Shown: one piece after another, positions 3 through 19,900 of the stretch
Layout: each line of letters opens with the position of its first letter
Position numbering within the stretch: the first letter of the stretch is position 1
Origin: a virus
Virus record (IMG/VR): IMGVR_UViG_3300020446_000078
Coordinates: 1-23,894 of that record
Direction: 5' to 3' (one strand)
DNA length: 23,894 nt
Position numbers and translations under genes: made by a program
The notes under the pieces: model-generated
What the model saw: only the letters and a program-made list of their open reading frames with translations
Told to the model about the DNA's origin: nothing
Database searches by the model: none

Positions 3-41
3 ACATCATCCTACTCAAACGGAGAACTAAACAGGTCATAA
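3..41 (+). CDS. Possible C-terminal end of upstream gene (gp6 position), partial
   Basis: Frame 3 is open from the window start and ends at TAA 39-41, one base before the ATG of the giant gene. It would give a short tail reading TSSYSNGELNRS. Frame 2 is also open and ends at TGA 44-46, overlapping the next ATG as ATGA, but it needs codons that are rare in this window (CGG, CTC, ATC repeated). Frame 1 has stops at 1-3 and 28-30. I prefer frame 3 on composition. By T4 gene order, the gene before 7 and 8 would be gp6, a baseplate wedge protein; this is synteny only, as 12 residues identify nothing. Confidence 0.3.
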   Translation, partial: TSSYSNGELNRS

Positions 42-42
42 A

Positions 43-3000
43 ATGATAGGAACTGGAATCGAAAAACGTATACAAGTTCAACAAGTTATAGAAAGTCAAC
101 TCCCTGAGTTTATACTTTCAGAGAGCCCAAAAACAGTTGACTTTTTAAAACAATACTACATCTCTCAGGAACATAGGGGTGGTGTGGTAGATTTGAGTGA
201 TAATTTAGATCAATACATTAAATTAGATAATTTAACACCAGAAGTAATTGTTGGTATTACAACTTTAAGCACAGATATTACAACTACAAGTGATACAATT
301 ACAGTATCATCTACAAAAGGTTTCCCAAATGAATATGGTTTGTTAAAAATTGATAGTGAAATTATCACATATACAGGTATCACGACAAATAGTTTCACTG
401 GATGTATTAGAGGATTTAGTGGTATTTCATCCTATACAAATCCTAATGATCCGGGTGAATTAGTATTTTCAAATACAACTACAGGAAATCATGCATCTGG
501 TGCAGTTGTAAATAACTTAAGTGTTTTATTTTTACAAGAATTTTATAAAAAAGTAAAGAAATCACTAACACCGGGATTAGAGGATACAAAATTTGTATCA
601 GAAGTTGATGTAAGTAATTTTATAAAAGAATCCAAATCATTATATCAATCTAAAGGAACTGCAGAGTCTTTTCGTATTTTATTTAATGTTTTATACGGAT
701 TGTCACCAAAAATTATAGATTTAGAGGAATTTTTAGTAAAACCTTCGTCAGCTGAATATATTCGTAGAGAGATTGTATTAGCTGAGGTAATTAGTGGTGA
801 TCCAAATAAATTATTAGGACAGACAATAACAAAATCTGATGACTTAGAAACAAACGCATCAGTGTCTGAAGTCGAAATTATAACAAGAAACAGAAAAACA
901 TTTTATAAGTTAAGTTTGTTTGTTGGATATAATGATAGGAGTGGAATAAATGGAGTATTTACCATTCCCGGTAAATCAAAAGTAATAGGTAATGTATCCA
1001 TAGGGTCGTCTGTAATCACCGTAGATTCGACTGTAGGGTTTGGAAATACTGGAACTATTAGATCGGGTATTAATACAATTACATACACTGATAAGACTGT
1101 TAATCAATTTTTAAACTGCACAGGTATTACTAACTCAATATCATCTACTGATGACTTAAGATCAGATGAATTAATATTTGGATATGAGGATGGTGACATA
1201 TCAAAAAAAGTAGAATTAAGAATAACTGGTGTTTTATCCAATTTTCAACTTTTACCTTCGGCAAGATCAAGTGTAACAAGTGAAGGAGAAAGGATTACTG
1301 TTAAAAATTTAGGTGAGGTAATTGCAAATCCAATAACTGATAGAACACAAAAAGAAATATTTTTTAATTCTTGGATTTATAATACATCTTGTACTTTTGA
1401 AATTGAATCAATTAATGGATCAACTTTTCTTCTTAAATCAAATTTTGATAAATCTAATTTGAAAGAAGGTGATAAGGTTGATATTTTAAGAAGGGGAACT
1501 GAAATAGTAGATGTTACTGATGCTATCATTAAAACAACAAATCCTACAGGTTTACAGGATAAACAATTAATTTTAGATAATATTTCAGGTTTTACACCAA
1601 CATTTGGTATTTTTTATGATCTTCGTAGAAAATTAGATAGAGCATTTAGTTCAACATCACAATTAGAGTTTGGAAATAATGTAATCACATCAAATGTACA
1701 GAATACTTATAATAAAGATGATGTTGATTACTATGTTGCCTCATCATCATTACCATCATATGATATCACTGAAACTGTCTCTAAAAGTATCATACCTAAT
1801 TCTACAGGAACTTTTTTACAAGGGTTTAATAATGTTAGTCAAAAATTCTCTATTATATCATTCTCAACTGATACTGACTTTAAAACAGGTGATGCCATAT
1901 TTTATAAACCGTCTAATAATCCTTTAAAAGGTTTAGAAGAGGGTGTGTATTATGTTGAAGTATTAAGTTTAAAAAATCAAATTAGATTATACAGCTCAAG
2001 ATCCTTTATACCCATATTAGATTTCTTACAATTTACAACGGGAGGCACCGGTAGTCATAGTTTTGTTCTTCTCAGACATAAAAATGAAAAAATTGGTGTA
2101 CAGAAAATATTAAAAAAATTCCCTGCCTCACCAAATATTAAATCAGGAAATAAAGTAGTTACTACTCCCGGTTCAACAGGTATTCTTATTAATGGTGTAG
2201 AAATTACAAACTACAAATCAGAAGATAAAATATATTATGGCCCATTAGATGATGTTAAAATTCTTAATGGTGGTACAAACTTTGATGTAATAAATTTACC
2301 TAGCATAACTCTTCCACAAGTCGCATCCGGCACAACTGCATTAATTCAACCAGTTATTCAAGGTGAATTAAAGGAGATTTTAGTAGATCGGCAAGATTTT
2401 GATATTGAAAGAGTTTTATCTGTGACAATATCAGGGGGTAACGGGGAAGGAGCAATTATTAAACCTGTTGTCAGAAAAAGATTTAGAGAAATATTTTTTG
2501 ATGGTAGAGATACAAGAGTAAGAGGTGGATTAGATATTATTCATGATCAAATTATCTTTGATAAACCACATAATTTATTAAGTGGTGAGCCACTAGTTTA
2601 TGACAATAATGAAAATGCTTCACTTGGTATAGGATCATTTAAAGGATCAAATACAAATCAAAATAAATTCCTATCAAATGGATCTGTTTATTTTCCAGAG
2701 GTTGTAGGAGTATCATCAATAAGATTGTATGAAACTGTTAATGATTTCAATGCAGGAATAAACACTGTTGGATTTACAACTGTAAACTCTCAAGGTACAC
2801 ATAAATTTAAACTTTTAAATAAAAAAAATCACTTACGTTCTGTTGTAATTGAAGATGCTGGTTCAAATTATACAAATCGCAAATTATTAGTAAAACCAAA
2901 TGCCATATCCACTATTGAAAATACCATAACTTTTAAAGATCATGGATTTAAAGATGGTGAGTTAATTACATATAATTATGAGTTTGGTGGTACAGGTATA

Positions 3001-6000
3001 ACAGGTATCAGTTCATCGAATCAATATAAAGTAATAACTTTAGATAATGATACATTTAGAATAGCCAATGCAGGTGTTGGTGGAACAAATAGTAGTTTTT
3101 ATACAAGGGGAGAGTATGTTAAAATAGAATCTACGGGATCAGGTTTACAAGAATTTGCATATCCTCCTATTACTTTAGATGTTAAAGCTGTTTACTCTTC
3201 AACTACATTAGCTAGATCTGCTGATCTTGTCTTAACTCCTATTGTACGTGGTAGTATTATTAAAACTTACCTATATGAACCCGGAACAAATTATGGATCT
3301 GAGATATTAAATTTTGAGAAAAAACCGGGTGTTACATTAAAAAATGGAAAACAAGCTGAATTAAGAGCAATAGCATCTAAAGGTAAAATCTTAACTGTAG
3401 ATGTTAGATTTGGTGGTAAAGAATATTTTTCACCACCTGATTTAGAGTTTGTTGGTGTAGGTTCTGGAGTTGGTGCAAAGTTAAGACCTGTGGTTACTGA
3501 TGGTAAAATCACAGATGTTGTAATTATTAATCCGGGTATAGGATACACTCAATCTCCACAAGTTTTAGTAAAACCAGCTGGTATAGGACAAATTATAGAA
3601 CCAGCAGTAAGATCTTTGACAGTTAATAATTTGGAGAGATTTGATGATGAAATATTACTTAAAGAAGCAGAATCTAATTTACAATACGCTGTTGTAGGAT
3701 ATAATACATCTCTCTATACTAATCCATTTAATGATCCAAATCAAATTACTGGACACTCTCCTATTATTGGATGGGCTTATGATGGCAATCCAATTTATGG
3801 CCCTTATGGTTATGAGGATCCAAGTGACTCTAACTCACAGATTAAAATTTTAGATACTAGTTATGTATTGGATACTTCAAATGTTATAAACAGACCAACA
3901 TCATTTACTAATGGATTTTTTGTAGAAGATTTTAGATTTAATGATTCTGGAGATCTCGATAGTAATAACGGAAGATATTGTAAAACCCCTGATTATCCTG
4001 ATGGAGTTTATGCATATTTTGTAGGAGTAGCAACTGGTGCACAAGGAAATCTTGATCCTAAATTCCCATATTTTATAGGAGATACATATAGATCAACTCC
4101 CATATCCGATAATTTTGTTATTAATCAAAATAATTTTGATTTTAATAATGAAAATGTTATAAGAAATACTCTACCATACAAAGTATCTGATCCTACTGCC
4201 GACAATGATTTTCTAATTGAATCTAATGAATCTGTTGAACAAAATGCAATAGTAGAATCTGTTACAGAGGGTGAGATTGAAGGTTTTCAAATAGTTGAAG
4301 AAGGAAGTGATTATAAGGTAGGTGATTCATTGGTATTTGATAATACAGATACATCTGGAGGGGGTGCCAGTGCCTTTGTAAGAAAGGTTACAGGAAAACC
4401 TATTACAAGTGTCACAACCGCAGTTCAGACGTACGATGATGTCGTTTACGTAAGAGATAGTGCAACTCAGATTAGTGGATTTATATCTACTTCTCATACT
4501 TTTGCTAATAATGATAACATTGTGGTTTCAGGATTGACCACAAGCATATCAAAACTAACAGATTCTTTCCAAGTAGGAGTTTCATCTGAACAAGTTGTAC
4601 TTTACAAAGAACTAGGTGCAAATGCTACATCAGGTATTGTTACTGACATATATGTCTCTGTTATCCCTGATAGAGTATCAGCTGGTAGTAGTATTGGTAT
4701 AGGTACGGAAAAATTATTAGTTCTTAATAAATTTAATGATAGAAAAATATTAAGGGTAAAGAGAGGAGTTGTTGGTACTGCACATAAATTATCTGATCCA
4801 GTTTTTACTGTACCTCATAAGTTTACATTGAATCTTGTTACTGAACCATTTGAATCGAAGGTAAATGATAAAGTATTCTTCAATCCTAAAGAACAAGTTG
4901 GATTAGCATTAACTGCTGGAACAAATATCGCTATGGCTAAGTCATTCACAACTGGTGAGATATCAAAGGTCATTAGTGTTCCTGCAAAAAGTATATTTTT
5001 ACCAAATCATCCTTTCACTAATAATCAACAATTAACATTTAAATTTCCCAGTGGAGCTGGTGCATTATCAGTTGGAACAGGTGTAACTCAGGCGGTTGCC
5101 TCTAGTTTTAATCTTGTAAGTGGTTCTACAGTATTTGCTAAAAAAATATCAAATGATTTAGTTGGTTTATCAACTGAATTAGGTGCTGAAACTATATTCT
5201 TTAAATCTGCACCATCTGATAATTTTGAATATTTACTTGAATCAAACTTTACTCAAGTTACAGGTAAAGCTCAAAAAATTACAGCACACGTTGCTGTATC
5301 AACATCTCATAATTTAAATGAGTTAGATACTATTGACTTAAAATTAAAATCAAATATAGCTGGTGGAACAGGTGTATCAACATCAGTCATAGTTAAATAC
5401 TCCTCTAGTGAGGATAAAATTCTAATTAATCCTACAACTATAGTAAAAGCTAATATTGGTGCCGATACTGTATTTAAAACTAATCACGGATTTAAAACCG
5501 GACAAAAAATATTTTATGATGGTGGAACTAATCAAGCAACTGGATTAAGCACTGGATCATATTTTGTATATAGAATTGATGATAATGCATTTCAATTATC
5601 TCAAACTTTATATGATGTTCAAAATGAACCACCAAAAGTAGTTGGTATCACTACAAATACTGGTGGAAATTCTCAAGAAATTTTCTTAATAAATCCACCT
5701 TTATCAATTGTCAACAATAATGATTTAATATTTTATGTTTCAGATTCATCGTTAAGTGGATATGATTTTAATTTTTACTATGATTCTGATTTCAAAAATG
5801 AGTTTGTTTCTATAGGAACTACAAATTTATTCACAGTTGAAAAAAATGGAACTATTGGTGTGGGTACGACATCTACTGTGATTTTAAAATATAATAATCA
5901 AAATCCATTAAATATATTTTACACCATTGAAAAAGGAGGATTTATAAGCACATCTGATAGGGATGTGGTTAATGCATCTAGAATAAACTATATTAATAGT

Positions 6001-9000
6001 GAATATGAAGGATCTTACATTGCATTTGGTGTTGGCTCTACATCATTTAATATATCTCTTAACAACGTTCCTGAAAAATTAAATTACTTATCGACAGAAA
6101 CTGATAATTTATCATATAGCACTAATTCTACTAGTGTTTTAGGTGGTGTAGCATCAATTAATTTAGCATCTGGTGGTTTAGGATTTAAAAAATTTCCTAG
6201 AATATCTACAATTACCTCAACTTCAGGTATTAATGCTAAAATTCTTGCATTATCAAAATCAATAAACAAAATAAACAAAGTAAGAATATTAGATCCGGGT
6301 TTTGAATATCATTCCGATAAAACTTTAAGACCAGAAGCAAGAATATCACCAACCATAACATTAATTAACTCTGATATAATTTCAAATATAGAGGTTGTTT
6401 CAGGTGGTAGAGATTATCTCTCAGCTCCTGATATTGTAGTTGTTGATCCTGAAACAGGAGAACTTACCGATCAAGGAGTGATTGAAGTTGAGACATCTGC
6501 AACATCCCTCTCATCTGTCAATATTATAAGTTCCCCTAAAGGATTAAAACCAATAGAACATACAATAAGAACCATTAATAATTCAAATGGTATATCAATA
6601 TCAAGAGTGGTTGGTATGAATACAACCACAACTACTGGTATTGTGACTTGTATTTTGGTTACACCAATAACTGGATTTGCAGTGCCTCAATTTGCTCAAG
6701 GTGATAAGATATTTGTTGAGGGAATACAACTTGAATCAACGATAGGATCAGGTTATAACTCTACCGATCACGGTTATGATTTCTTTACAGTATCAAAATA
6801 TGAGAATACTAATCCAGCTAAATTAGAGTTTAATTTAACAGGTATAGGTGTAAGTATTGGTATTGCAAAAACCACACAAGGAAACTATGCCAATATTATT
6901 AATTTTAATAAGTATCCTAAATTTAAAACCACTCAAAAATCTTCTCAATTCAAAAATGGTGAAAGAATAGCAGTTAAGGAAAGTGGTACTTTTATATTAT
7001 CTGATCTTCTCGTTCTTGAAAATAATCCTAATGAATTTATAAAAGTTTTTGGAAAAAGAGAGTTGATCATAGGAGATATTATAAGAGGGGAAATTTCTGG
7101 AACAAGAGCAACTATTAATTCTATATCAAATAATAGAGCTAGATTTAATGTCGATTATTCATTAAGACAAGAAAAAGGATGGAATACTGAAATAGGAAAA
7201 TTAAGTGAAGATTATCAAGTGTTGTCAGATAATGATTATTATCAAAATTTATCATATAGTATTCAAAGTCCAAAAACTTTTGAGGAAATCATAGATCCTG
7301 TAAATAGGTTACTTCATACATCAGGATTGAAAAATTTTGCAGATACCGGAATCACCTCCACTGCAAAATCAGGAATCTCATCCAGTTCAGATATAGTAAT
7401 AGCAAGGGATTTGATCAGTGAAGAAAGAGTTGATACTATTAATAATTTTGATTTAGTTATAGATACGGATACAATTGCTAATGGAACACAATCTAAATTT
7501 ATCAAATTAAGAAATAAAAAACTTGCAAGTTTTATTGAATGTAGAACAAATAGAGTAATTGATATTGATGATATTAGTTCTCAATTCTCAAATACAAATA
7601 GCACTTTAAACGGTAGATTTGATACAGAAATAATTGAAAATTATGAGAGTTTCTTAGTACAAACAAGAAATCCATTAACAAATGAAATACAACTTGATGA
7701 AGTTGTAGTTTTCAAAGATAACACTGACATATTTACATTTGAGAAAAATCGTTTGGGTATTGGTACACAAACAATTGCTGATTTAGAAGGTGTTTCTGAT
7801 TCTAGTAATAAAACTTTCTTGAGAGTAACTCCCACAAATCCATTTGATGATGATTTAGATATAAAATTTTATAGAAATAGATTCAATAGTTCTCTTGCAG
7901 GTATTAATACAGAGGCACTTGGTTTTATTAACTTAGTTGGTGTAGCAAAAACAGTTGATCCAGCTGCAACAATAAGTTTAGTATCTGCACCATCTGGAAT
8001 TACATCAGCATTTTATGCTACTGTTGAGGTAACTGATGATATTACAAATGAAAAAAATCTTGTTGATCTTTATGCAACACATGATGGAACTAATTCTTAT
8101 TTCTCTGAATATTATGTTGATAGTGGTGATGTAAATAATTTTTCATCTAATTTTATTGGAACATTTACATCTAATTTAAATTCTGGTGTTTTATCAATAG
8201 ATTTCCAAAATACGGGGTCTAATAGAGCTACACTAAGGTCTAGAGCAGTGGGATTTGGAACCACTGCATTAGGTCAAGGTACATATAGATTTAAAGACTC
8301 TGCACAAATTAGTGGTAATGAGAGAACAGTTAACCTTGTATCAACATTTAAGAGAGTATCAGGTACATCGACAATTGTAGGTATTGATTCAAATAAATTT
8401 AGTGCGATTAAAAGTATTGTAAAAGTTGCTGCTGGATCCACAGTTTCAATGCACCAAGTTTTAGCAGTTCATGATGGAACCGATACATCTATTGTTCACT
8501 ATCCATTTATCTCTATAGGAAGCACATCAGGTATAGGTACATTTATTTCAAACTATGCTAATAATAAATTTAATGTAAGATTTAATCCTGATACTGGTTT
8601 TTCTGATGTTGAAGTATCTGCTTATAGTGAATTGATATACACAGATCTTGATTTATTCAATACTCCTCCAGATTTAACTTATGGAAGAGTATCAGAGTCA
8701 GTTAGCATAGGATTATATAATGCTGTTAATGGAAATAGATCAAATAAAACAGAATTTGAGCTAACACATAATGGAGTTCCAATTTTTGCAAAAACATTCT
8801 CACCATCTGATGCTTCTATAGTTAACCCTGTGACCGGTGTATTTACTATACCTGACCATTTCTTCAATACAGGTGAAAAATTAAAATATACACCAAAAAG
8901 CACATTCACAGGTGTAACAGCTGATGCAATGGAAACTTCTGCTGGTGTAGATTTAACAACAAATGTTTTTGCAATTCGTTTAACAAAAGACACATTTAAA

Positions 9001-12000
9001 TTAGCATTAACTAAATCAAATGCTAACTCCGGTACAGGAGTTACTTTTACGTCATTGGGAGCTGGAAATAAACATCAACTTGAGATGACTAAAAAACTTG
9101 AAAAAAGTATTGTAGTAGTTGATGGTTTAATACAATCTCCAATAGCGTTTACACCGATAAACACAACATTAACTAATAATGGAGGTAGCATTTCTGCATC
9201 TGATGCCATCTTTAGTATAGCTGGAATATCATCTATAGGACAAGGAGATATATTAGAGATTGGAACTGAATTTATGGAAGTATTATCAGTTGGAATCGGA
9301 ACACTTGCGATAGGGCCAATATCTGGTGATGGTTCATTTAAATTAGTAAATGTTGAGAGAGGTTCATTAGGATCTATAGCGAGTTCACATAATGATGCAA
9401 CTGCTGTAAGAAAATTTAAGGGATCATTTAACATTGTAGATAGTAAAATTCATTTTACTGATGCTCCTAAAGGAACTAATTTCACTGAAAGAGACGATTC
9501 TAATTTAACATTCCCTAGATCAGATTTTCACGGTAGAGTATATTTTAGAAATGATTATACATCAAATAGAATTTTTGATGATATCTCAGATGGATTTACT
9601 GGAGTTGGAGCAACACATATAGTTAAAGTTGGTGGAGCTAATACAACAGGAATACAAACTGGTGGAAGTATAGTTTTACTTAATGGAATATTTCAAACTC
9701 CAACCACATCTAATAATCAGGGTAATAATTATGATTTCATTGGAGATACAACAGCAGGTATTACAACTATATTCTTTACTGGTATTACATCAACAAATGG
9801 TACTAAAATTGTCAGTGAATCTGATGTTAACTTAAATCAACTTCCAAGAGGAGGATTGATTGTATCACTTGGATCTACTGGTGGTTTAGGTGTTGCACCT
9901 TTGGTTGGTGCTGCTGTAACTGTGGTAAAAGATGCTAATGGAGTTATTACATCTGTAGGTTTAGGTGCTACTGATCAATTAGGATCTGGATATCGTGGTA
10001 GTGTAGCGATTGGTGTGACTGATATTGCTTATGATCATAGATTTGTTAGTTCAGGTATTGGTTCAATAAAACAATCTAATTTTAACGGTAATGGATTCAC
10101 TGCTACAGATGCAGTTTATACATCTCATACTGGTGTGTTAGTGTTAACTATCCCTAATCATGGATTAACAACTAGCGATACAGTTGGTATTGATACTGGT
10201 GGTTTAGTGTTTAGATGTTCAAAAGATAATTTCCAAACATTACATCCTTATCCACGTTTAGTATCAAAGACTTCATTAGGAACTAGAAGTGATCCCGTAG
10301 CAGGAATTCAAACAGCTATTACTGCAACCACCACTAATACAATCACCATAAATGTTGGCCCCGGTGGTGGTGCAGGAACAGGTGCAGTTATTAATGCAAC
10401 TGTGGGTGCTGGTGGTACATTAGGCTTTACTGTTGCAAATGGTGGTACCGGATATGTAAATCCCGTAATTAATATCCCTGAACCAACTTATGAAAATCTT
10501 GAAGTTATAGGTGTTTCACGTTTAGGAATAGGTGCCACAACTGATACTGGATTAGGACTAAAAGTAACTGTTGATGTTGGAGCAAGTTCAACAACAGGTA
10601 TTGGTTCTACACTACACACAGTACAATCATTTAAAATTACAAGAAATGGATTTGGATTCAAAAAAGGTGATGTATTCAAACCTGTTGGATTAGTTACTGA
10701 TAGGCAATTGACTCATAAAGTCAGTGATTTTGAATTAACTGTTACAGAAGTATTCACTGATAACTATTCTTCTTGGGATTTTGGTGAGTTTGACTTTATA
10801 GATCCTATAAAAAATCTACAAAATGGTAAAAGAAAAAGATTCCCTATTAGGTTAAATCAAGAATTATTAAGTTTTGAAATAGACAGATTAAATGCTGATT
10901 CATCACTTATTGATATGCAAGACTTACTATTAATATTTGTAAATGGTGTATTACAAGAGCCCGGAGTAGCATATACCTTTGAAGGTGGAACAACATTCGC
11001 GTTTTCTGTAGCACCATCAACAGATGATGATATATCAATATTTTTCTATAAAGGAACATCTGGAGGATCGAATCCGGACACTACAATTGTTGATGTGACA
11101 CAATCAATCAAAGAAGGTGATGTTGTTAAAATAGGAGCTGGTTCTGGAGTGTTACCACAATCAAGAAGAACAGTTATTGGAATTACTACATCTGATACGT
11201 TTGAAACTGACCTTTACACAGGATCAGGTATAGATGAAAATACATTTAGACCACTTGCTCAATGGAGAAAACAAAAAATTGATAAAATTATTGGAGGTGA
11301 TGTTGTATCTAAAGCAAGAGACTCAATTGAACCTTTAATTTATCCAACTGCTAGAATTATTGGTGATTTATCAACTTCAAAATCAGCAGGGACAAGTATT
11401 TTTGTTGATGACGCACAGTTTTTTGAATATGAGGAAGATCATTCATCTATTGTAATTAACAGTTTTGGAGGTTTAATTGTAGATAATATTAACCCTGTTG
11501 CTGCAAAATTAAAAGCTGTTGTTTCTGCTACTGGTACAATATCCCAAATTAATGTGATAGAGGGTGGGAGTGGTTACGTAGGAGCGACCACAAGTATATC
11601 AATCGCAGCTCCAGTGGGCGTGGCTAACACACAATTCGCTCTAATTGGTATATCAACATTTGCTACTGCAACTGCAAACATCACTAATGGATCTATTGCA
11701 TCAGTAACTGTGAATAACATCGGTCTTGGATATACCACCACTAATCCTCCTGCAGTTTTAGCACCCTCTCCTGAACCAATTAAAGAAAATATTACTGATA
11801 TTAAAAAGGTAGAAGGATTTTCAGGCATAGTCACAGGTATCTCGACAGATATTGTTGGTGTATCCACTCTGGTCATAAGAATAGGTCTTGCAAGAACATC
11901 AGATGATTTCAGCAGTCTTGTCGTTGGATATCCAATCTATGTTTTTGATACAACAGTTGGTAATGGTGTAACATCACTAAACTTAAGTGGTAATGATAAT

Positions 12001-12345
12001 GATATAGTTGGAGTTGGAACAATGTTTGCAGATAATATTTACATGATTCAAAATATTACAAGAAATGGATCAAATGCTGAAATATTAGCTCACATTCACT
12101 CAGGAACTGTACATACAGGGTTATCTACAATCTCTACTGGAAACGGTGGTTTTAATGGTAGATTTTCTTGGGGAAGATTCTTTAATTCTTCTGGTAATTT
12201 TAGTAGACCTGAACCAATATCTATAGGAGTTACAGGTAATACTGTAGGTCTTTCAACTGGTGTTGGTATATCTACTTTCCCAACTATTCAAAGAAGAGTA
12301 TTTGGTATCCGTGATACCGGTGCAGTGCGTAAAACATTAAGTTGA
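43..12345 (+). CDS. Giant baseplate/tail structural protein in the T4 gene 7 position, YHYH-containing, 4100 aa
   Basis: Single uninterrupted ORF of about 430-440 kDa. Residues 8-60 (SQLPEFI..., FLKQYYISQE, DNLDQYIKLD) and 199-221 (KGTAESFRILFNVLYG) match a conserved N-terminus I know from marine myophage tail proteins. The rest is Thr/Ser/Asn/Gly-rich and built from short beta-type repeats: a G-x-G-Y module, an H-G-F module and an E-I-x-Y...RG module. A YHYH domain lies near 1230-1350. A conserved block near 2379-2436 contains DNDYYQNLSYSI and GLKNFADTG. Three N-G-x-x-Q-like motifs occur near 3027, 3214 and 3634, and the C-terminus contains GRFSWGRFF. No signal peptide or membrane segment is seen. 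It precedes gp8, where T4 has gene 7 (wedge initiator, 1032 aa), so a wedge role is inferred; sequence similarity to T4 gp7 is not visible to me. The ATG at 43 has only a weak Shine-Dalgarno sequence (AGG at 33-35, GGAG at 21-24). Structural assignment is strong; the gp7 equivalence is moderate. Confidence 0.85.
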   Translation: MIGTGIEKRIQVQQVIESQLPEFILSESPKTVDFLKQYYISQEHRGGVVDLSDNLDQYIKLDNLTPEVIVGITTLSTDITTTSDTITVSSTKGFPNEYGLLKIDSEIITYTGITTNSFTGCIRGFSGISSYTNPNDPGELVFSNTTTGNHASGAVVNNLSVLFLQEFYKKVKKSLTPGLEDTKFVSEVDVSNFIKESKSLYQSKGTAESFRILFNVLYGLSPKIIDLEEFLVKPSSAEYIRREIVLAEVISGDPNKLLGQTITKSDDLETNASVSEVEIITRNRKTFYKLSLFVGYNDRSGINGVFTIPGKSKVIGNVSIGSSVITVDSTVGFGNTGTIRSGINTITYTDKTVNQFLNCTGITNSISSTDDLRSDELIFGYEDGDISKKVELRITGVLSNFQLLPSARSSVTSEGERITVKNLGEVIANPITDRTQKEIFFNSWIYNTSCTFEIESINGSTFLLKSNFDKSNLKEGDKVDILRRGTEIVDVTDAIIKTTNPTGLQDKQLILDNISGFTPTFGIFYDLRRKLDRAFSSTSQLEFGNNVITSNVQNTYNKDDVDYYVASSSLPSYDITETVSKSIIPNSTGTFLQGFNNVSQKFSIISFSTDTDFKTGDAIFYKPSNNPLKGLEEGVYYVEVLSLKNQIRLYSSRSFIPILDFLQFTTGGTGSHSFVLLRHKNEKIGVQKILKKFPASPNIKSGNKVVTTPGSTGILINGVEITNYKSEDKIYYGPLDDVKILNGGTNFDVINLPSITLPQVASGTTALIQPVIQGELKEILVDRQDFDIERVLSVTISGGNGEGAIIKPVVRKRFREIFFDGRDTRVRGGLDIIHDQIIFDKPHNLLSGEPLVYDNNENASLGIGSFKGSNTNQNKFLSNGSVYFPEVVGVSSIRLYETVNDFNAGINTVGFTTVNSQGTHKFKLLNKKNHLRSVVIEDAGSNYTNRKLLVKPNAISTIENTITFKDHGFKDGELITYNYEFGGTGITGISSSNQYKVITLDNDTFRIANAGVGGTNSSFYTRGEYVKIESTGSGLQEFAYPPITLDVKAVYSSTTLARSADLVLTPIVRGSIIKTYLYEPGTNYGSEILNFEKKPGVTLKNGKQAELRAIASKGKILTVDVRFGGKEYFSPPDLEFVGVGSGVGAKLRPVVTDGKITDVVIINPGIGYTQSPQVLVKPAGIGQIIEPAVRSLTVNNLERFDDEILLKEAESNLQYAVVGYNTSLYTNPFNDPNQITGHSPIIGWAYDGNPIYGPYGYEDPSDSNSQIKILDTSYVLDTSNVINRPTSFTNGFFVEDFRFNDSGDLDSNNGRYCKTPDYPDGVYAYFVGVATGAQGNLDPKFPYFIGDTYRSTPISDNFVINQNNFDFNNENVIRNTLPYKVSDPTADNDFLIESNESVEQNAIVESVTEGEIEGFQIVEEGSDYKVGDSLVFDNTDTSGGGASAFVRKVTGKPITSVTTAVQTYDDVVYVRDSATQISGFISTSHTFANNDNIVVSGLTTSISKLTDSFQVGVSSEQVVLYKELGANATSGIVTDIYVSVIPDRVSAGSSIGIGTEKLLVLNKFNDRKILRVKRGVVGTAHKLSDPVFTVPHKFTLNLVTEPFESKVNDKVFFNPKEQVGLALTAGTNIAMAKSFTTGEISKVISVPAKSIFLPNHPFTNNQQLTFKFPSGAGALSVGTGVTQAVASSFNLVSGSTVFAKKISNDLVGLSTELGAETIFFKSAPSDNFEYLLESNFTQVTGKAQKITAHVAVSTSHNLNELDTIDLKLKSNIAGGTGVSTSVIVKYSSSEDKILINPTTIVKANIGADTVFKTNHGFKTGQKIFYDGGTNQATGLSTGSYFVYRIDDNAFQLSQTLYDVQNEPPKVVGITTNTGGNSQEIFLINPPLSIVNNNDLIFYVSDSSLSGYDFNFYYDSDFKNEFVSIGTTNLFTVEKNGTIGVGTTSTVILKYNNQNPLNIFYTIEKGGFISTSDRDVVNASRINYINSEYEGSYIAFGVGSTSFNISLNNVPEKLNYLSTETDNLSYSTNSTSVLGGVASINLASGGLGFKKFPRISTITSTSGINAKILALSKSINKINKVRILDPGFEYHSDKTLRPEARISPTITLINSDIISNIEVVSGGRDYLSAPDIVVVDPETGELTDQGVIEVETSATSLSSVNIISSPKGLKPIEHTIRTINNSNGISISRVVGMNTTTTTGIVTCILVTPITGFAVPQFAQGDKIFVEGIQLESTIGSGYNSTDHGYDFFTVSKYENTNPAKLEFNLTGIGVSIGIAKTTQGNYANIINFNKYPKFKTTQKSSQFKNGERIAVKESGTFILSDLLVLENNPNEFIKVFGKRELIIGDIIRGEISGTRATINSISNNRARFNVDYSLRQEKGWNTEIGKLSEDYQVLSDNDYYQNLSYSIQSPKTFEEIIDPVNRLLHTSGLKNFADTGITSTAKSGISSSSDIVIARDLISEERVDTINNFDLVIDTDTIANGTQSKFIKLRNKKLASFIECRTNRVIDIDDISSQFSNTNSTLNGRFDTEIIENYESFLVQTRNPLTNEIQLDEVVVFKDNTDIFTFEKNRLGIGTQTIADLEGVSDSSNKTFLRVTPTNPFDDDLDIKFYRNRFNSSLAGINTEALGFINLVGVAKTVDPAATISLVSAPSGITSAFYATVEVTDDITNEKNLVDLYATHDGTNSYFSEYYVDSGDVNNFSSNFIGTFTSNLNSGVLSIDFQNTGSNRATLRSRAVGFGTTALGQGTYRFKDSAQISGNERTVNLVSTFKRVSGTSTIVGIDSNKFSAIKSIVKVAAGSTVSMHQVLAVHDGTDTSIVHYPFISIGSTSGIGTFISNYANNKFNVRFNPDTGFSDVEVSAYSELIYTDLDLFNTPPDLTYGRVSESVSIGLYNAVNGNRSNKTEFELTHNGVPIFAKTFSPSDASIVNPVTGVFTIPDHFFNTGEKLKYTPKSTFTGVTADAMETSAGVDLTTNVFAIRLTKDTFKLALTKSNANSGTGVTFTSLGAGNKHQLEMTKKLEKSIVVVDGLIQSPIAFTPINTTLTNNGGSISASDAIFSIAGISSIGQGDILEIGTEFMEVLSVGIGTLAIGPISGDGSFKLVNVERGSLGSIASSHNDATAVRKFKGSFNIVDSKIHFTDAPKGTNFTERDDSNLTFPRSDFHGRVYFRNDYTSNRIFDDISDGFTGVGATHIVKVGGANTTGIQTGGSIVLLNGIFQTPTTSNNQGNNYDFIGDTTAGITTIFFTGITSTNGTKIVSESDVNLNQLPRGGLIVSLGSTGGLGVAPLVGAAVTVVKDANGVITSVGLGATDQLGSGYRGSVAIGVTDIAYDHRFVSSGIGSIKQSNFNGNGFTATDAVYTSHTGVLVLTIPNHGLTTSDTVGIDTGGLVFRCSKDNFQTLHPYPRLVSKTSLGTRSDPVAGIQTAITATTTNTITINVGPGGGAGTGAVINATVGAGGTLGFTVANGGTGYVNPVINIPEPTYENLEVIGVSRLGIGATTDTGLGLKVTVDVGASSTTGIGSTLHTVQSFKITRNGFGFKKGDVFKPVGLVTDRQLTHKVSDFELTVTEVFTDNYSSWDFGEFDFIDPIKNLQNGKRKRFPIRLNQELLSFEIDRLNADSSLIDMQDLLLIFVNGVLQEPGVAYTFEGGTTFAFSVAPSTDDDISIFFYKGTSGGSNPDTTIVDVTQSIKEGDVVKIGAGSGVLPQSRRTVIGITTSDTFETDLYTGSGIDENTFRPLAQWRKQKIDKIIGGDVVSKARDSIEPLIYPTARIIGDLSTSKSAGTSIFVDDAQFFEYEEDHSSIVINSFGGLIVDNINPVAAKLKAVVSATGTISQINVIEGGSGYVGATTSISIAAPVGVANTQFALIGISTFATATANITNGSIASVTVNNIGLGYTTTNPPAVLAPSPEPIKENITDIKKVEGFSGIVTGISTDIVGVSTLVIRIGLARTSDDFSSLVVGYPIYVFDTTVGNGVTSLNLSGNDNDIVGVGTMFADNIYMIQNITRNGSNAEILAHIHSGTVHTGLSTISTGNGGFNGRFSWGRFFNSSGNFSRPEPISIGVTGNTVGLSTGVGISTFPTIQRRVFGIRDTGAVRKTLS
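3262..3600 (+). repeat. Three tandem G-x-G-Y type modules in the giant protein
   Basis: Three consecutive units read, in outline, I-hydrophobic-V...(P)G-x-x-Y...P-x-hydrophobic strand, then Gly-Ala/Lys-x-Ala, then a G-K-I turn. Anchor segments are YEPGTNYGSEI, RFGGKEYFSPPDLEF and INPGIGYTQSPQVLV. The unit length is about 35-40 residues. Related single or paired copies occur elsewhere in the same protein (near nt 2260, 2840, 4270, 6280-6470, 9960, 10440, 11550 and 11730) and in the next two genes. The pattern suggests a short beta-solenoid or beta-prism element; the fold is inference. Confidence 0.7.
3730..4092 (+). other. YHYH domain inside the giant protein
   Basis: Residues about 1230-1350. 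The core, starting GHSPIIGWAYDGNPIYGP at residue 1237, has W1244, Y1246, D1247, Y1252, Y1255 and Y1257 in the spacing typical of YHYH domains (Gly-x-Ala-x-Asp-Gly-x-Pro-Ile-Tyr-Gly-Pro). A second conserved part follows near 1310-1345 with DYPDGVYAYFVG and FPYFIG. The family is found in secreted and surface proteins of marine bacteria and in large cyanophage structural proteins; its biochemical role is not established. Here it sits between the first group of G-x-G-Y repeats and the next repeat block, so it looks like an inserted globular unit. Confidence 0.85.
11500..11779 (+). repeat. Two G-x-G-Y modules near the giant protein C-terminus
   Basis: Two back-to-back copies of the same module: A-A-K-L-K-A-V-V...G-T-I-S-Q-I-N-V-I-E-G-G-S-G-Y, then A-T-A-N-I...G-S-I-A-S-V-T-V-N-N-I-G-L-G-Y, followed by a Pro-rich strand (NPPAVLAPSPEP). 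Both keep the G-x-I-x-x-(I/V)-x-V-x-x-x-G-x-G-Y core. This is the most regular pair in the gene, and it closely resembles the pairs in the two downstream genes. Confidence 0.7.
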
Positions 12346-12381: not shown

Positions 12382-13941
12382 ATGCCAGCAGTAGTCACTG
12401 ATCAGTTTAGAATTTTAAATGCAAGTAACTTTGTCGATACAGTTACAGGCATTGGAGGAGCTGATCCAAAAAATTCATTTTATGTAACATTAGGTTTACC
12501 TAACCCAAGAATAGTTGGGTTTGGTAGAACTTCAACTTGGGATACTAATACACCAAATCCTGTAGATAATATTAATAGAAATAATCATATTGGTGATACA
12601 ACTTTATTTGGTAAAAGAGTAACTGGAAAGAATATCAGACGTTTGATAAGAAAGGTTGATTGGACACAAGGAACCAGATATGAAATGTATCGTCATGATT
12701 ACAGTGTCAACTCACCCTCTCCTATTACACAATCATCAAGATTATATGATGCAAGTTACTACGTAATTAATGAAAATTTTAATGTTTATATTTGTATTGA
12801 TAATGGTTCATCAGGAATTAATACTACAGGAAATGCATCACAGGATGCACCAACTTTTACTGATTTAGAACCATCAAAAGCTGGTGAAAGTGGTGACGGA
12901 TATATTTGGAAGTATCTGTATACAGTTTCTCCAAGTGACATTATTAAATTTGATTCTACAGAATTTATTGCAGTTCCAAACGATTGGACAACAACTAATG
13001 ACGCTATTATACAGTCAGTTCGTGAAAATGGTGATTCAGATCTTAATAATAACCAGATAAAAAAAGTTTATATTGAGAATCAGGGTAATGGTTACTCTGG
13101 AGGTATAGGTCAAGAGTTTAGTATTTTGGGTGATGGCACTGGTGGTAAAGTTGTTGTAGATGTCGTTAATGGAAAAATAACACAAGCAATTGTTTCATCA
13201 GGTGGTAAAGGTTATACTTATGGAATAGTTGATTTGGGATCAATAAATGCAAATGCATCAAGTAGAGCTAAATTAATACCCATTATCCCACCTTCAAAAG
13301 GTCATGGATTTAATATTTACGAAGAGTTAGGGACAGATCGTGTTTTATGCTATGCAAGATTCGGTGGGGATAATAAAGATTTTCCATTTGATACTAAATT
13401 TGCTCAAGTTGAGTTAGTAAAAAATCCTACATCAATTGGAACTACATCAGTTTACTTTAGTGATTCATACTCATCACTAAACTCAATAAAATTCCCTTCG
13501 ACGACCACTGCAAACCCTGTGATTGGTGAAAAAATAAGTCAAACTGTCACAGGTGGTACAGCTGTTGGATATGTCGCATCTTGGGATAAAGAAACGAAAG
13601 TGTTAAAATATTTCCAAGATAGATCACTTTATTTTGGAAATGGAGTAGATCAAACTGATTATGTAGGTGTATCTACGCTAGGTCAAGTTTTAGCATTTCA
13701 ATCAACTGCTAATCCAATTACCAGTCCTAGTGGTTTTTCTGGTTCAGTAGAAACCACATTTAGTTCTGGTATCACCACAGTAGGAACAAAAAATGTAGGT
13801 TTAGGTGTTACTTTCACAAATGGACTTGCAACTCCTGAAATAAATAAAGGGTCAGGTGATATAATCTATATTGATAATAGAGCAACTATCACAAGAAACT
13901 CTAGACAAAAAGAAGACGTAAAAATCATTCTGGAATTCTAA
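12382..13941 (+). CDS. 8: Baseplate wedge protein gp8 (T4-like), 519 aa, enlarged
   Basis: Homologue of T4 gp8, a structural subunit of the baseplate wedge. Matches recalled from T4 gp8 (334 aa): the DQFRILNASNF start resembles SKFRTEKMLNF; IRKVDWTQGTRYEMYRHD corresponds to IPRRDWGDTRYPDPYTF; GDGYIWKYLYTVSPSDI (about residues 171-187) corresponds to GDGYVWEYLFEIPPDV; EFIAVPNDW to EYIVVPWP; and the last 28 residues (GDIIYIDNRATI...IILEF) to T4's GEMIYMENRPPI...ILFTF. It is about 185 residues longer. Much of the excess lies after residue 205 and includes two G-x-G-Y modules at about 230-310. The ATG at 12382 follows the late promoter box; the Shine-Dalgarno is poor. It ends three bases before the next start. 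Confidence 0.9.
   Translation: MPAVVTDQFRILNASNFVDTVTGIGGADPKNSFYVTLGLPNPRIVGFGRTSTWDTNTPNPVDNINRNNHIGDTTLFGKRVTGKNIRRLIRKVDWTQGTRYEMYRHDYSVNSPSPITQSSRLYDASYYVINENFNVYICIDNGSSGINTTGNASQDAPTFTDLEPSKAGESGDGYIWKYLYTVSPSDIIKFDSTEFIAVPNDWTTTNDAIIQSVRENGDSDLNNNQIKKVYIENQGNGYSGGIGQEFSILGDGTGGKVVVDVVNGKITQAIVSSGGKGYTYGIVDLGSINANASSRAKLIPIIPPSKGHGFNIYEELGTDRVLCYARFGGDNKDFPFDTKFAQVELVKNPTSIGTTSVYFSDSYSSLNSIKFPSTTTANPVIGEKISQTVTGGTAVGYVASWDKETKVLKYFQDRSLYFGNGVDQTDYVGVSTLGQVLAFQSTANPITSPSGFSGSVETTFSSGITTVGTKNVGLGVTFTNGLATPEINKGSGDIIYIDNRATITRNSRQKEDVKIILEF
13060..13290 (+). repeat. Pair of G-x-G-Y modules inserted in gp8
   Basis: Two units at gp8 residues about 227-303. The first is I-K-K-V-Y-I-E-N-Q-G-N-G-Y followed by G-D-G-T-G-G-K-V-V-V-D-V. 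The second is G-K-I-T-Q-A-I-V-S-S-G-G-K-G-Y followed by A-S-S-R-A-K-L-I-P-I-I. They keep the same core as the modules of the giant protein and of the downstream 2401-residue protein. As far as I recall, T4 gp8 has no such segment, so this looks like an insertion between the conserved wedge-protein core and the C-terminal part. Confidence 0.7.
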
Positions 13942-13944
13942 AAA

Positions 13945-16900
13945 ATGCCACAAAAAACGAATCTCAATATAAGTCCTTACTTCGACGATTTCAAAAAGGA
14001 TAATAATTTCTATAGAGTCTTATTTAATCCGGGAAAACCTGTTCAGGCAAGAGAACTTACAACACTTCAGTCTATCTTACAAGATCAGATTGAATCTTTT
14101 GGTAGTCATATGTTTAAAGAGGGATCTATGGTGATTCCGGGAAATATTTCTTATGACGCACAATATTTTTCTATAAAATTAGATTCAATCCATTTAGGTA
14201 TTGCAGTTTCAGTATATGTAGATAATTTAAAAGGTAAAATTTTAACAGGACAAAAAAGTGGCATTAAAGTCCTTGTTGATAATTACGCTTTACCGAATGA
14301 TTCAACTGGCATTACAGATTTAACATTTTTTATTAAATATCTTGATTCAGGTAATAATAATAATGTTTCGTTTTTAGACGATGGTGAAGATTTGCTCATA
14401 GATGAGGGATTTGTTTACGGTAATACACCTGTAAATTCAGGTGATTCAGTGGCTACATTGATTGAAAATAATGCCACAGCAGTAGGTTGTTCTGCATCTA
14501 TAGCAGATGGAGTCTTTTTTGTAAGAGGTCATTTTATTAATGTCTCAGCAGATAAAATAGTTTTAGATCCATATACTAATAGCCCATCATATAGAGTTGG
14601 TCTTTTCATACAAGAACAAATTGTAAATGCAGATCAAGATTCGACTTTAAATGATAATGCTAGAGGATTTTCAAATTTTGCAGCTCCCGGTGCTGATAGA
14701 TTAAAAATATCTACAAAATTGACAAAAAAAGGATTAACTGATTTTAATGATAAAAATTTTATAGAACTCATTCGTCTTGATGATGGAGAATTAAAAAAAT
14801 TACAAAATGAATCACAATATTCTTTAATAAAAGATTACTTTGCAAAAAGAACATTTGAGGAATCTGGAAATTACTCTCTTAAAAATTTCCAATTAAATGC
14901 ATTTGAATCTCTTAATGATGGATTGTCAAATGAAGGTATATTTACTTCTAATGAGATTACTGATCAAGGTAATACTCCTTCTGATGATTTATTAGCACTA
15001 AAAGTTTCACCGGGTAAGGCATATGTAAGAGGTTATGATATAGAAAGACCAGCTACAACTATATTGGATTTAGATAAACCAAGGGATAAAAAACAATTAT
15101 CTAATAGCATAGTTCCATTTAGAAATGGTAATTTATTTCAGGTGAATCGTGCTGCAGGAACACCAAAAATTGGTTTAGATGGAAGTGCAAATATTGAGTT
15201 ATATGATCGAAGAAAGGGTGCAACAAATAATGCAACTAGTGGTACAGGAACTCTGATAGGAAATGCAAGAGTATACGCATTTGAGAATCACGATGCATCT
15301 GGTGGTTCTGCTGAAACAATATTTGATCTATATCTATTTGACATACAAACATATACATTTTTAAATCTTAATAAAACATTATCAAACATTGATTTACCTG
15401 ATACATCATTCGTAGAGGGTTTATCAAGTGGTGCAACAGGATTTGCTGTAAGCTCTGGTGGTAATAGTGCAACTGTGACATTAAGAGATACATCAGGAAC
15501 ATTTATTGCTGGTGAACAGATAAGAATTAATGGAAATGATGGTAATGCAATAGGTGCTTCAAGAACCATAGCAACTGTTAGTGAAAAATCACTTAGAGAT
15601 GTAAAATCTGTATATCAAGATGCATCAACATTAGGTTTACAGACTGATTTTAGTGCAGACATAGTTCTTAAACCATCACCAATCAGAGAATTAGGGCCTG
15701 GAGATGAAGTTAATGTTAGTGGATCTAATGTTTTAACCTGTGCAGGTAAGACATTTGGTTCGTTAAGAGTAGGTGATATAATTATAGTTAACTTAACAAC
15801 AGACGCATCTCCTAGATTTAATCTTGTAAGTTCTATTTCTTCTGATTTAAAATCAGTAACACTAGCAGCAGTGACAAATGTATCAGGAGTTTGTGTAGGA
15901 ACTGTATTGGCATCTGCAACTGCAACTGGTATTAGTGTCGGTAAACCTGCAGTTAAAAATGAAAATACTGGATTATTTGCTCAATTGCAAGAAAAAAATG
16001 TATCTGACGTTGATTTAAGTAATTCAGAATTAACAATAAAAGCTCAAATTACTGGAAAAAGCACTGATAGTGAAGGAGATTTAGTATTTGATACATCAGA
16101 TTTAGTTGGTATCACTAGTGCCTTCTTTGAAACATTTGATAGTGATAGGTATTCTGTAATACTTGCAAATGGAACTATTGAATCCATAGCATCTGATCAA
16201 TTTACTTTATCAAATAATGCATCAACCGTTACGATAACTGGTATGCAAGCAAGTCAAACTAATAATGTAACTGTAAATGTAACTGCTAAAAAAGTTTCAA
16301 TAAGCACAAAACAAAAAATATTTGATCGAAGTCATGTTGTTAATGTTGATAAGTGTATTTCTGGTATATCAACTGTAAATGGATTATCTCAAAATAATTT
16401 CTTTGGACTTCGTGTTGATGATAAAGTAATTTCTTTAAATACACCTGATGTTGTAAATGTTGTTGGGGTATATGAATCGGTTACAAATGTCGCTCCAGTA
16501 TTAGATAAATTAGTATTTGTGAGTGGTTTATCCTTAGATACGGCTTCATTATTAGGTGAAAAAATTATTGGATCTGTAAGTGGAGCTATTGCTCAAATAA
16601 CTGAGAGATCAAGTGCGACCACGGTTGAAATCGCATATTTAACACAACAAACCTTCCAAATCGGTGAAACAGTTACATTTGAAGAATCAAATATTATCAC
16701 AAACTTACAGAACGTAACAATAGGATCATATTTAAATATAACATCAAGTTATAATCTTGATAAAGGTCAAAGAAATGGATTTTTAGATTATTCAAGATTA
16801 GTTAGAAAAGACAATGTAAGAGTTCCAAATAGAAGATTAAAAATAATAGTAAACAGATACACAGTTCCCTCTAATGATAAGGGTGATGTGTTTACAGTTG

Positions 16901-19900
16901 GATCTTATGATGAAGAAAGATTTAGTAAAGATGTTCCAATTCTTGAGGGTGGAATTAGAGCAACAGATACATTAGACTTTAGACCTAGAGTTGCTGATTT
17001 TTCTGTTGCAACTAGTTCACCATTTGATTTCGATAATAGAAATTTTGCATCTGCTGGCACCAATCCAACGTTAGTTCCTTCACCAAATGAAAGTTCAATC
17101 ATAGGTATCAGTCATTATTTACCAAGGACTGATAAAATTATATTAGATCCATCAGCAAATATAGATGAAAGATATACATCTGGAGAATTTGTTATTGTTA
17201 AGGGTGTTCCTTCAAAAAATCCAATCGCACCTAATGATATTGAACTAGGTATGACAGTTGCTACTGTTGAATTGCCAGCATATCTCTACGATCCAAAAGA
17301 CGTAAAAATTACAATCAAAGATAATCGTAGATATACGATGAGAGATATTGGCAAAATAGAGGATAGAGTTGATAACTTAGAAACGATTACATCATTAAGT
17401 TTACTTGAATTAGATACAAAAACTCTCCAAATACAGGATGCTGATGGATTAAGTAGATTTAAGACTGGATTTTTTGTAGATGATTTTAAAGATAATTCAT
17501 TATTAGATATTAATAATCCAGATTGTAAAGTTGATATTGATATTGAAAATCAACATTTAATCACTCCTACTGATTTTTATGCATTAAAACCTGAACTTGC
17601 ATTAAAAGAATCTATTGATTCTACAACAGCAGATTTTTCTGCTAATCTTGAATTATTAGATGCTGGTATCAAAAAAACTGGCGATATTTTAACTTTAGAT
17701 TATGAAGAGGATATTTTACTTGATCAACCTTTAGCATCTAGAGTTGAAAATGTAAACCCATTTAGTGTTGTTTCATTCCGTGGAAATTTAACTATTAATC
17801 CTAGTGCAGATATTTGGACAAGAAATGTTGTTTTAGATAATGGTAATCGTACTTTATTTGGAGATCCAGCTGATAGTTTTGCTGCTCAAGTTTTAGTAAG
17901 TAGTGAACCAGATACACATATTCGTTCAAGAAATGTAGGATTTGAAGCAACAACATTAAAACCAAATACTCAATATTATCCATTCTTTGACAGCACTAGT
18001 GGTATTGATATAATTCCAAAATTAATTGAAGTTACTATGGCATCTGGTTCTTTCACGATTGGTGAAACAGTACAGGCACTTATTCAAACAAATACATCTG
18101 GAGATTTTGGCCCAACATTAATTGGTCGTTTTAGACTTGCACAACCAAACCATAAATCTGGCCCATTTTCTACACCTACATTAACATATTCTAATAATCC
18201 ATATAATCCATCTGTAATAATTCCTACAACATATTCTTCTTCAACTACAGTTGTAAATATAGATATAGCATCTTTAATTGAGGAAGCACAAGGAAGATTT
18301 TTTGGATATATTAACACAAATACATTATTAGTTGGTGAAACTAGTGGAGCTATTGCCGATGTTGTTAATAGAAGATTAATCACAGATAGAGTAGGTGATG
18401 TAAACGGATCATTCTTCATACGTGATCCATTAACAACACCTGCACCTCCATTAAGATTCACAAATGGTGATAATTCTTTTAAATTAACATCAAGTTCTAC
18501 GAATGAGGTTACAGTTGCTGGAAGTCCTGCTGTAAGCAGTGTACAAACAACTTACAGCACTAGTGGAATAGTAGATACATTTTCACAAACAACAGTGGGA
18601 ATAAGGGAGCTACCACCACCACCAATACCTGTGATAATTAACATAAACATTACAAATGTATTCCATGAAATGGAAGTTGATGATGGCGACCCTCTTGCAC
18701 AATCATTTACAGTTGATGAGACAGGTGCTTTCTTAACATCAGTAGACATCTTTATGAGAAAGAAAGATGTTAAAGAAAAACTCACAGTTCAGGTAAGAAC
18801 AGTAGAATTAGGAACACCAACATTAATTCAAGTTCAAAATTTTGCTCAAGTTGTTTTAGATCCATCACAAATTAATGTTTCAGAAGATGCATCTGCTGCT
18901 ACAAATGTAAAGTTCCCCTCACCAGTATATCTTGAGGCTGGAACTCAATATTGTATTGTTCTTCTTGCTCCAACAACTAATAATTATGAGGCTTGGATCG
19001 CTCGTATGGGAGAGGCAACCATAGGAACACAGTCATTACCTGATTCTGAAAATGTTATTATATCTCAACAATATATCGGTGGTAGTTTATTTAAATCACA
19101 AAATGGTTCAATCTGGACACCAAGCCAGTTTGAAGATATGAAGATCAAACTATACAAAGCAAAGTTTACAACAACAGATGCGACAGCATTTTTCTATAAT
19201 CCAGAACTTAATTATGAAAGTGGACAAGTTCCAAAACTACCCAGTAATCCAATTAAATCTTACCCTCGTAAGTTAAAAGTCGGTATTAATAATATTACTG
19301 CATCTCTTCCTTCTTCTCAATCATTTGATAGTGGTAGGAAGGTGAGTGAAGGAACTCAACCTGGCCCATTTGGATTCATTGAGTCAGTGGGTGGCCCAAT
19401 ATCATCACTAGGTGGTAGTGGCATAACAAATGTCGGTGCAGGATATTCAAATGGACAATACGCTAATGTTCCTCTGTTTGCAATAACAGGTAATGGTTCT
19501 GGTGGCACAGCAACAGTAACTATTTCTGGTGGTGTTGTAAATGCGATTAACAGTATTAATAGTGCTGGAAATGGATATGCAGCCGGAGATATAGTTGGAT
19601 TAACAACCTCAAATATGACTAGAGGAGGTGGTGCTCAGATCACTGTTGACTCAATAACAGGCACTGACACCTTATATCTTACAAATGTACAAGGTCAAGC
19701 ATTTACTGTTGGTCAAGACTTAGTTGTTTATGACGATTCTGGAACCGCAGTCGCTTATGCTAATACAAATATCACAAGTTCTTCTGTATTGGATGATTTA
19801 CATACTGGAAATGTTATTGAAGTTGCTCATTACAATCATGGAATGAGTGCGTCAAATAATAAAGTTCAAATATCAAATATTCAACCAACTACTCAACCTA

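Follow-up and report, generated by a model that had tools for sequence, protein, structure and literature searches.

The open reading frame (ORF) at positions 43 to 12345 appears, with a probability of roughly 0.8, to encode a gp7-type baseplate wedge protein of a cyanophage-like relative of T4, one in which the anchor is split, about 2090 residues are inserted between its halves, and a C-terminal extension of about 1650 residues forms, together with the insertion, a peripheral arm of beta domains. The window (the whole stretch of DNA analyzed) is a 23,894-bp virus fragment. The ORF has an ATG start, 4100 codons for amino acids, and no internal stops. The features discussed below are as follows; residue numbers are those of the window protein.

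3..41, + strand: 3' end of gene 6, the last 12 codons, TSSYSNGELNRS, plus the stop codon; the same as the gp6 C termini of relatives

43..12345, + strand: putative giant gp7-type baseplate wedge protein, 4100 aa; phrog_2885, E = 0 over residues 3 to 3397

61..228, + strand: predicted N-terminal helices, residues 7 to 62, within a block common to the pelagiphage homologue; AlphaFold2 model, low-to-moderate pLDDT

250..531, + strand: beta module type B, copy 1, residues 70 to 163, inserted among the N-terminal helices; self-profile match to residues 310 to 379, E = 4e-7

589..936, + strand: gp7 anchor, half 1, residues 183 to 298, with a YxSKGT motif, corresponding to the start of T4 gp7 domain V; hhalign, PDB profile search, and fold

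964..1167, + strand: beta module type B, copy 2, residues 308 to 375; self-profile comparison and fold

1300..6087, + strand: internal insertion relative to the pelagiphage homologue, residues 420 to 2015, mostly beta modules; colinear blocks versus HTVC008M gp55

3283..3642, + strand: GxGY-type beta module, residues 1081 to 1200; self-profile comparison

3751..4029, + strand: YHYH-type domain, residues 1237 to 1329; PF14240, E = 3.5e-26, profile positions 92 to 182 of 193

6088..7383, + strand: block common with the compact pelagiphage gp7 equivalent, residues 2016 to 2447; hhalign probability 98.6, P = 5e-16

7195..7383, + strand: gp7 anchor, half 2, residues 2385 to 2447, with a DNDYYQNLSYSI...H..G motif, corresponding to T4 gp7 residues 865 to 897; A3 profile

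7384..12342, + strand: C-terminal extension, residues 2448 to 4100, variable in length among relatives (7 to 2662 aa); gap table

10771..11094, + strand: tail-fiber/tailspike-type beta domain, residues 3577 to 3684; A4 profile, phrog_18673, and fold

12382..13941, + strand: gp8, baseplate wedge; PF09215, E = 1.3e-12; phrog_438, E = 7.5e-159

13945..21150, + strand: 2401-aa structural protein at the DUF4815/"VrlC" position; PF16075, E = 4e-52; phrog_358

The peptide encoded at positions 3 to 41 is identical to the C terminus of gp6 in close IMG/VR relatives, which have intact gp25 and gp6 genes upstream, and gp8 starts 36 bp past the end of the giant ORF. The gene order gp25-gp6-X-gp8 is found both in the close relatives of the window virus and in complete genomes. 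Thus, the end of gene 6 upstream and gene 8 downstream confirm the gene 7 position from both flanks, and the preliminary description of a 4100-residue ORF directly before a clear gp8 was exact. Farther downstream, window positions 21957 to 23666 encode a 569-aa fiber-like protein (phrog_15769) without a Pfam family.

A chance ORF is excluded because the N-terminal 700 residues gave tblastn matches in 461 phage records, nearly all of them cyanophages, and because related complete genomes have intact orthologous ORFs of 3895 to 5195 aa. It is also vanishingly improbable that the length is an assembly artifact in which several genes were fused. Two records could be read that way: contig IMGVR_UViG_3300030012_003314, 99.9% identical to the window, has 8 extra bases near window position 4063 that split the ORF, and in the S-SKS1 record the gene is broken into several frames. 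However, the artifact reading is contradicted by the orthologues in that size range, which are intact in many independent genomes and contigs. The 8 extra bases, which fall just past the YHYH-type domain and leave ORFs of 1351 and 2763 aa, are probably themselves an assembly artifact, because the reading frame is unbroken at that point in the window and in other relatives. In S-SKS1 (NC_020851, 15992 to 28384), the giant gp7 gene lies in frames of 710, 1601, 1113, and 739 aa with a partial annotation, and its breaks look like sequencing frameshifts.

The giant gp7 is an already known kind of protein, and its size is ordinary at this position in cultured cyanomyoviruses. A length about four times that of T4 gp7, which the preliminary description had remarked on, is the rule in this group (3048 to 6076 aa) and no peculiarity of this phage. 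The orthologues between gp6 and gp8 have 5195 aa in P-SSM2, 4749 in S-T4, 4454 in P-HM2, 4307 in P-TIM68, 4225 in ACG-2014f, 4067 in Bellamy, 3895 in S-SRM01, 3533 in S-MbCM7, 3048 in S-PM2, and 6076 in syn9; those of P-SSM2, P-HM2, ACG-2014f, and others are already annotated as gp7 or baseplate wedge initiator. Residues 3 to 3397 of the window protein aligned with positions 3 to 3417 of the 4179 in phrog_2885 ("baseplate wedge subunit"), at 3692 bits, and a further stretch matched as well. The N-terminal 700 residues had matches in at least 597 IMG/VR stretches. P-SSM2 gp7 (YP_214343.1) is about 43% identical to the window protein over nearly the whole length. The two, like the other giant gp7s and phrog_2885, share position, domain order, the YHYH-type domain, and the split anchor, but the C-terminal extension of the window protein is about 1100 residues shorter than that of P-SSM2 gp7.

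Gene position, sequence profile, and, modestly, fold establish the window protein as a gp7-type wedge protein in the broad sense, as had been proposed. Profile A1, which covers the first 600 residues and was built from 59 sequences, was run against all PDB sequences (hmmsearch, to E = 1) and found only T4-type gp7 (5HX2/5IV5 and 9F4A; E = 2.4e-4 and 3.4e-4); phmmer with the whole 4100-aa protein gave no PDB match. In the T4 genome, gp7 was the sole A1 match. In each cyanophage genome the best A1 match was the start of the giant ORF, with one core per genome; the weaker additional matches were the shared beta module. By hhalign, residues 190 to 308 aligned with T4 gp7 residues 724 to 822 (probability 94.8, P = 5e-8), and a further comparison with T4 gp7 gave a P value of 2e-7. 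The T4 gp7 family phrog_964 had a single matching place in 6 of 10 cyanophage genomes, and this place lay within the giant ORF in all six. The preliminary description had considered that a separate gp7 gene might lie elsewhere; a search of ten complete cyanophage genomes revealed none (the window virus itself is represented by a 23.9-kb fragment).

The AlphaFold2 model of residues 1 to 600 is of moderate quality (pLDDT, 68.8; pTM, 0.32). Its top-ranked Foldseek match in the PDB was T4 gp7, at a weak E value of 3.7e-3, rather than a protein of another role, which the preliminary description had considered. VIA-align superimposed model residues 238 to 411 on T4 gp7 residues 763 to 853 (root mean square deviation of 3.7 over 88 residues; 15% identity), and the Z values against three T4-type gp7 structures were 9.4 (this alignment), 9.1, and 8.4. 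EF-Tu-like matches of model residues 443 to 532 resembled a common beta-barrel arrangement and were set aside.

The homology to T4 gp7 is nevertheless short, extending directly over 30 residues by HMMER and 99 columns by hhalign, and is limited to about 180 scattered residues of the window protein. Under the strict definition of the T4 gp7 family (phrog_964 over its length; PF21427 and PF21456), which calls for the N-terminal 640 residues and the curated model of domain V, the window protein is not a member, and PF21427, the strict T4 model, was absent from ten cyanophage genomes. T4 gp7 residues 1 to 640 had no counterpart in the full-length cyanophage profile (P = 0.65); a circular permutation of T4 gp7, with its N-terminal domains shifted to the C terminus, was thus not seen.

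Profile comparisons show that the conserved gp7 part consists of two short blocks, residues 183 to 298 and 2385 to 2447, that are homologous to T4 gp7 from about residue 724 to 905. The compact pelagiphage protein HTVC008M gp55 aligned with the window protein in two colinear blocks, its residues 1 to 399 with 1 to 420 (probability 99.2) and its residues 476 to 821 with 2016 to 2447 (probability 98.6). The second block ends in the motif D[NS]xYYQ..SYxI...H..G, which aligned with T4 gp7 residues 865 to 897, immediately past domain V (P = 3e-5). All 14 genomes gave exactly one match to profile A3, the 65-residue motif of half 2, and this match lay each time in the ORF of gp7, colinear with A1. 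In the T4 genome the A3 match was gp7, at an E value of 0.002; by itself, half 2 is weak against T4, with P values from 5e-4 to 3e-5 besides that genome search. In two independent curated profiles, PF23786 and phrog_26741, both halves lie close together, and in the giants these profiles match the two halves in separate places.

The distance between the halves is 100 to 107 aa in T4-type gp7, 191 in pf16, 298 in DLP6, 330 in Melnitz, 471 in HTVC008M, 765 in phiM12, about 1520 in S-PM2 and S-MbCM7, 1631 in S-CREM2, and 2082 to 2288 in the others. With blocks 2087 aa apart and about 1650 residues following half 2 (1653 in the window protein), the giant size resolves into an internal insertion and a C-terminal extension. 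In T4 gp7 (1032 aa; 5IV5), which occupies the same gene position, 640 residues precede the anchor region and 107 separate the halves, whereas the window protein has about 180 residues before the anchor, including the inserted beta module. In pf16 gp212 (523 aa, from a Pseudomonas phage), the phiM12 wedge protein (1007 aa), HTVC008M gp55 (1016 aa), and S-CREM2 gp122 (1937 aa), both halves are in one ORF and the core is N-terminal, but the insertion is far smaller than in the window protein, the C-terminal extension is missing, or both. The preliminary description had listed three single-copy conserved regions: the N terminus, a middle block at residues 2379 to 2436, and the C-terminal region. 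All three are real, the middle block being anchor half 2, but residues 1101 to 1450, which include the YHYH-type domain, and 1951 to 2150 are conserved in distant relatives as well. A description of the split anchor was not found in the open-access papers searched; the useful new points are the splitting of the anchor and the placement of the additional mass.

In a published comparison, T4 gp7 was said to be absent from pelagiphages and cyanomyophages, with VrlC as its substitute (PMC7029224). The low direct similarity to T4 gp7 agrees with that statement, but judged from the sequences the substitution is contradicted, the gp7 anchor being in an ORF of its own. HTVC008M gp55, which lies between gp6 and gp8, bears both halves of the anchor, and in that phage a gene of its own, past gp8, encodes VrlC; the same order is found in the window, where the protein at the DUF4815 position follows gp8. 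In relatives, the neighbors are named VrlC. We therefore consider it very improbable that VrlC stands in for a missing gp7. HTVC008M gp55 (3936 to 6986), the gp7 equivalent, is labeled "head closure Hc2," and gp59, farther downstream, bears the label "baseplate wedge initiator." The "Hc2" label (phrog_3465/460) seems to spread via the shared GxGY beta module, mislabeling wedge proteins.

Most of the added length had been described as repeated short beta modules. Profile self-comparison gave 72 paralogous matches versus 0 for the reversed sequence and revealed at least three recurrent module types, but these are demonstrable for only about 1017 residues (25%) of the chain; plain BLAST self-comparison found no internal repeats at an E value of <0.01. 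Additional GxGY-type copies occur near residues 733 to 812, 2033 to 2163, 3442 to 3477, and 3807 to 3901, and the GxGY motif was counted 6 times versus 0.66 expected in shuffled sequences. Type B copy 1 resembles beta domains found in other structural proteins of phages (Z = 11.6 and 10.6), and copies of this module are also present in neighboring structural ORFs; one recurs at residues 2013 to 2047 of the 2401-aa protein at the DUF4815/VrlC position. This recurrence suggests module exchange among baseplate genes. In syn9 (NC_008296, 60774 to 63974), about 500 additional residues interrupt the N-terminal type B module of the 6076-aa homologue, which makes this a second site of insertion.

The match to PF14240 covers only the C-terminal half of the Pfam profile. 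The prediction that YHYH proteins are metal-dependent hydrolases rests on a histidine triad (PMC7824862). Unlike those proteins, with their YHYH motif and predicted metal site, neither the window protein nor any relative examined has the motif, and residues 1222 to 1350 of the window protein contain a single histidine. For these two reasons the YHYH-type domain is read as a putative structural or binding domain.

The preliminary description had raised a possible resemblance of residues 3600 to 4100 to gp7 or gp10. None was found; a tail-fiber/tailspike-type domain is there instead. The A4 profile matched the N-terminal domain of the capsule K1 depolymerase 9K4A (E = 8e-10, two copies), and residues 3577 to 3684 matched phrog_18673, in which 12 of 14 members are tail fiber proteins. 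The model of the C-terminal region is poor (54.8), so its Foldseek matches were set aside except for a consistent set of tail fiber domains, which the sequence matches then supported; likeness to T7 gp17-type N-terminal domains reached Z values of 6.0 to 6.6, moderate and below the level that is safe alone. The domain is kept in most giant gp7s but not in HTVC008M, S-CREM2, or T4. In tailspikes and tail fibers such a domain is N-terminal, whereas here it is embedded near the C terminus of a wedge protein. The profile of the C-terminal 671 residues had no match in the PDB, Pfam gave nothing useful with the C-terminal alignment, and no solved homologue of the extra ~3900 residues was found in the PDB copy searched.

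This domain, the modular beta make-up, and the note "putative fiber" in the record of the syn9 homologue would suit a protein that is mainly a tail fiber or adhesin and merely occupies the gene 7 slot. We regard this as unlikely: the gp7-type anchor is present and is the sole one in each complete genome, and compact homologues of 523 to 1016 aa in the same slot keep the anchor and lack the extension. The fiber and gp7 readings are compatible, as an anchor with a fiber-like arm. What had been proposed for the protein as a wedge component stands in its gp7-type identity and its fiber-like domains, but not in its unusual size or the gp7/gp10 resemblance near its C terminus.

The window protein has a mass of 441.7 kDa, versus 119.2 kDa for the T4 gp7 chain (PMC3004832). 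T4 gp7 is a monomer present in six copies per tail, forming (gp6)2-gp7 with a three-helix bundle and a trifurcation domain (PMC3004832, PMC6300606). If the same six copies per baseplate are assumed from T4, the window protein would contribute 2.65 MDa in total. An earlier estimate that over 2 MDa would be added fits this total, but the gain over six T4 gp7 chains is only about 1.9 MDa. In the S-CREM2 virion, gp122 was abundant, with 91 unique peptides (PMC10665884). By our comparison, gp122 is a homologue of the window protein (core E value, 1e-61).

Under the gp7 reading, the N-terminal helices and both anchor blocks would fold together, and the folded anchor would associate with a gp6 dimer in the manner of the T4 wedge. 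The insertion and C-terminal extension would reach out from the anchor as a beta-domain chain and form the baseplate periphery, with the fiber/tailspike-type and YHYH-type domains as possible docking or glycan-contacting surfaces, and this chain would take the place of the N-terminal 640 residues of T4 gp7 itself. The elaborated outer baseplate or fiber-like extensions envisaged in the preliminary description are borne out insofar as the extension carries fiber-like domains; a peripheral role for them is our inference. Counterparts of gp6, gp8, gp9, gp10, gp11, and gp12 were sought within the chain of the window protein, and none was detected. The T4 gp9/10 N-terminal family is missing from most of the cyanophage genomes examined. 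Because of the lack of gp9 to gp12 counterparts in the chain and of the gp9/10 family in most cyanophages, a takeover of peripheral baseplate roles by gp7 fits, but this is not proof. T4 gp9/10-type N-terminal domains were seen in the ORF directly after gp7 in syn9 (79023 to 79430) and P-TIM68 (75803 to 75910), the only two above the cutoff among the cyanophages searched.

A more far-reaching proposal, which we offer tentatively and at somewhat less than even odds, is that the wedge anchor is one domain closed over a loop of about 2000 residues. The whole outer baseplate would then have grown from the wedge core protein by insertions and extensions, and not from separate gp9/gp10/gp11/gp12-type proteins, with the same insertion point used from T4 to the giants as the gap widened from about 105 to 2290 residues. 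A rather doubtful alternative makes half 2 a small independent domain with a use elsewhere in the baseplate; the chain would then be an anchor plus a long string and not an anchor closed around an insertion. The weakness of half 2 by itself against T4 speaks for it, as does the fact that no model brings the two halves together. However, the halves are colinear, occur once per genome, are adjacent in T4, and are close in pf16; the S-CREM2 protein ends only 7 residues past half 2, which itself follows half 1 by 1631 residues.

T4-like cyanophages are among the most abundant viruses in the ocean. Published comparisons conflict on whether cyanophages have gp7, and the two-block anchor supports its presence; it also corrects two misleading names: VrlC as the gp7 substitute, and "head closure Hc2" as the label of the gp7 counterpart in the pelagiphage. 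About 180 residues are now marked for placement in the wedge core, and the other ~3900 are the peripheral part that needs explanation. If the closed anchor is true, a major group of ocean viruses would owe its outer baseplate to the outgrowth of one wedge protein.
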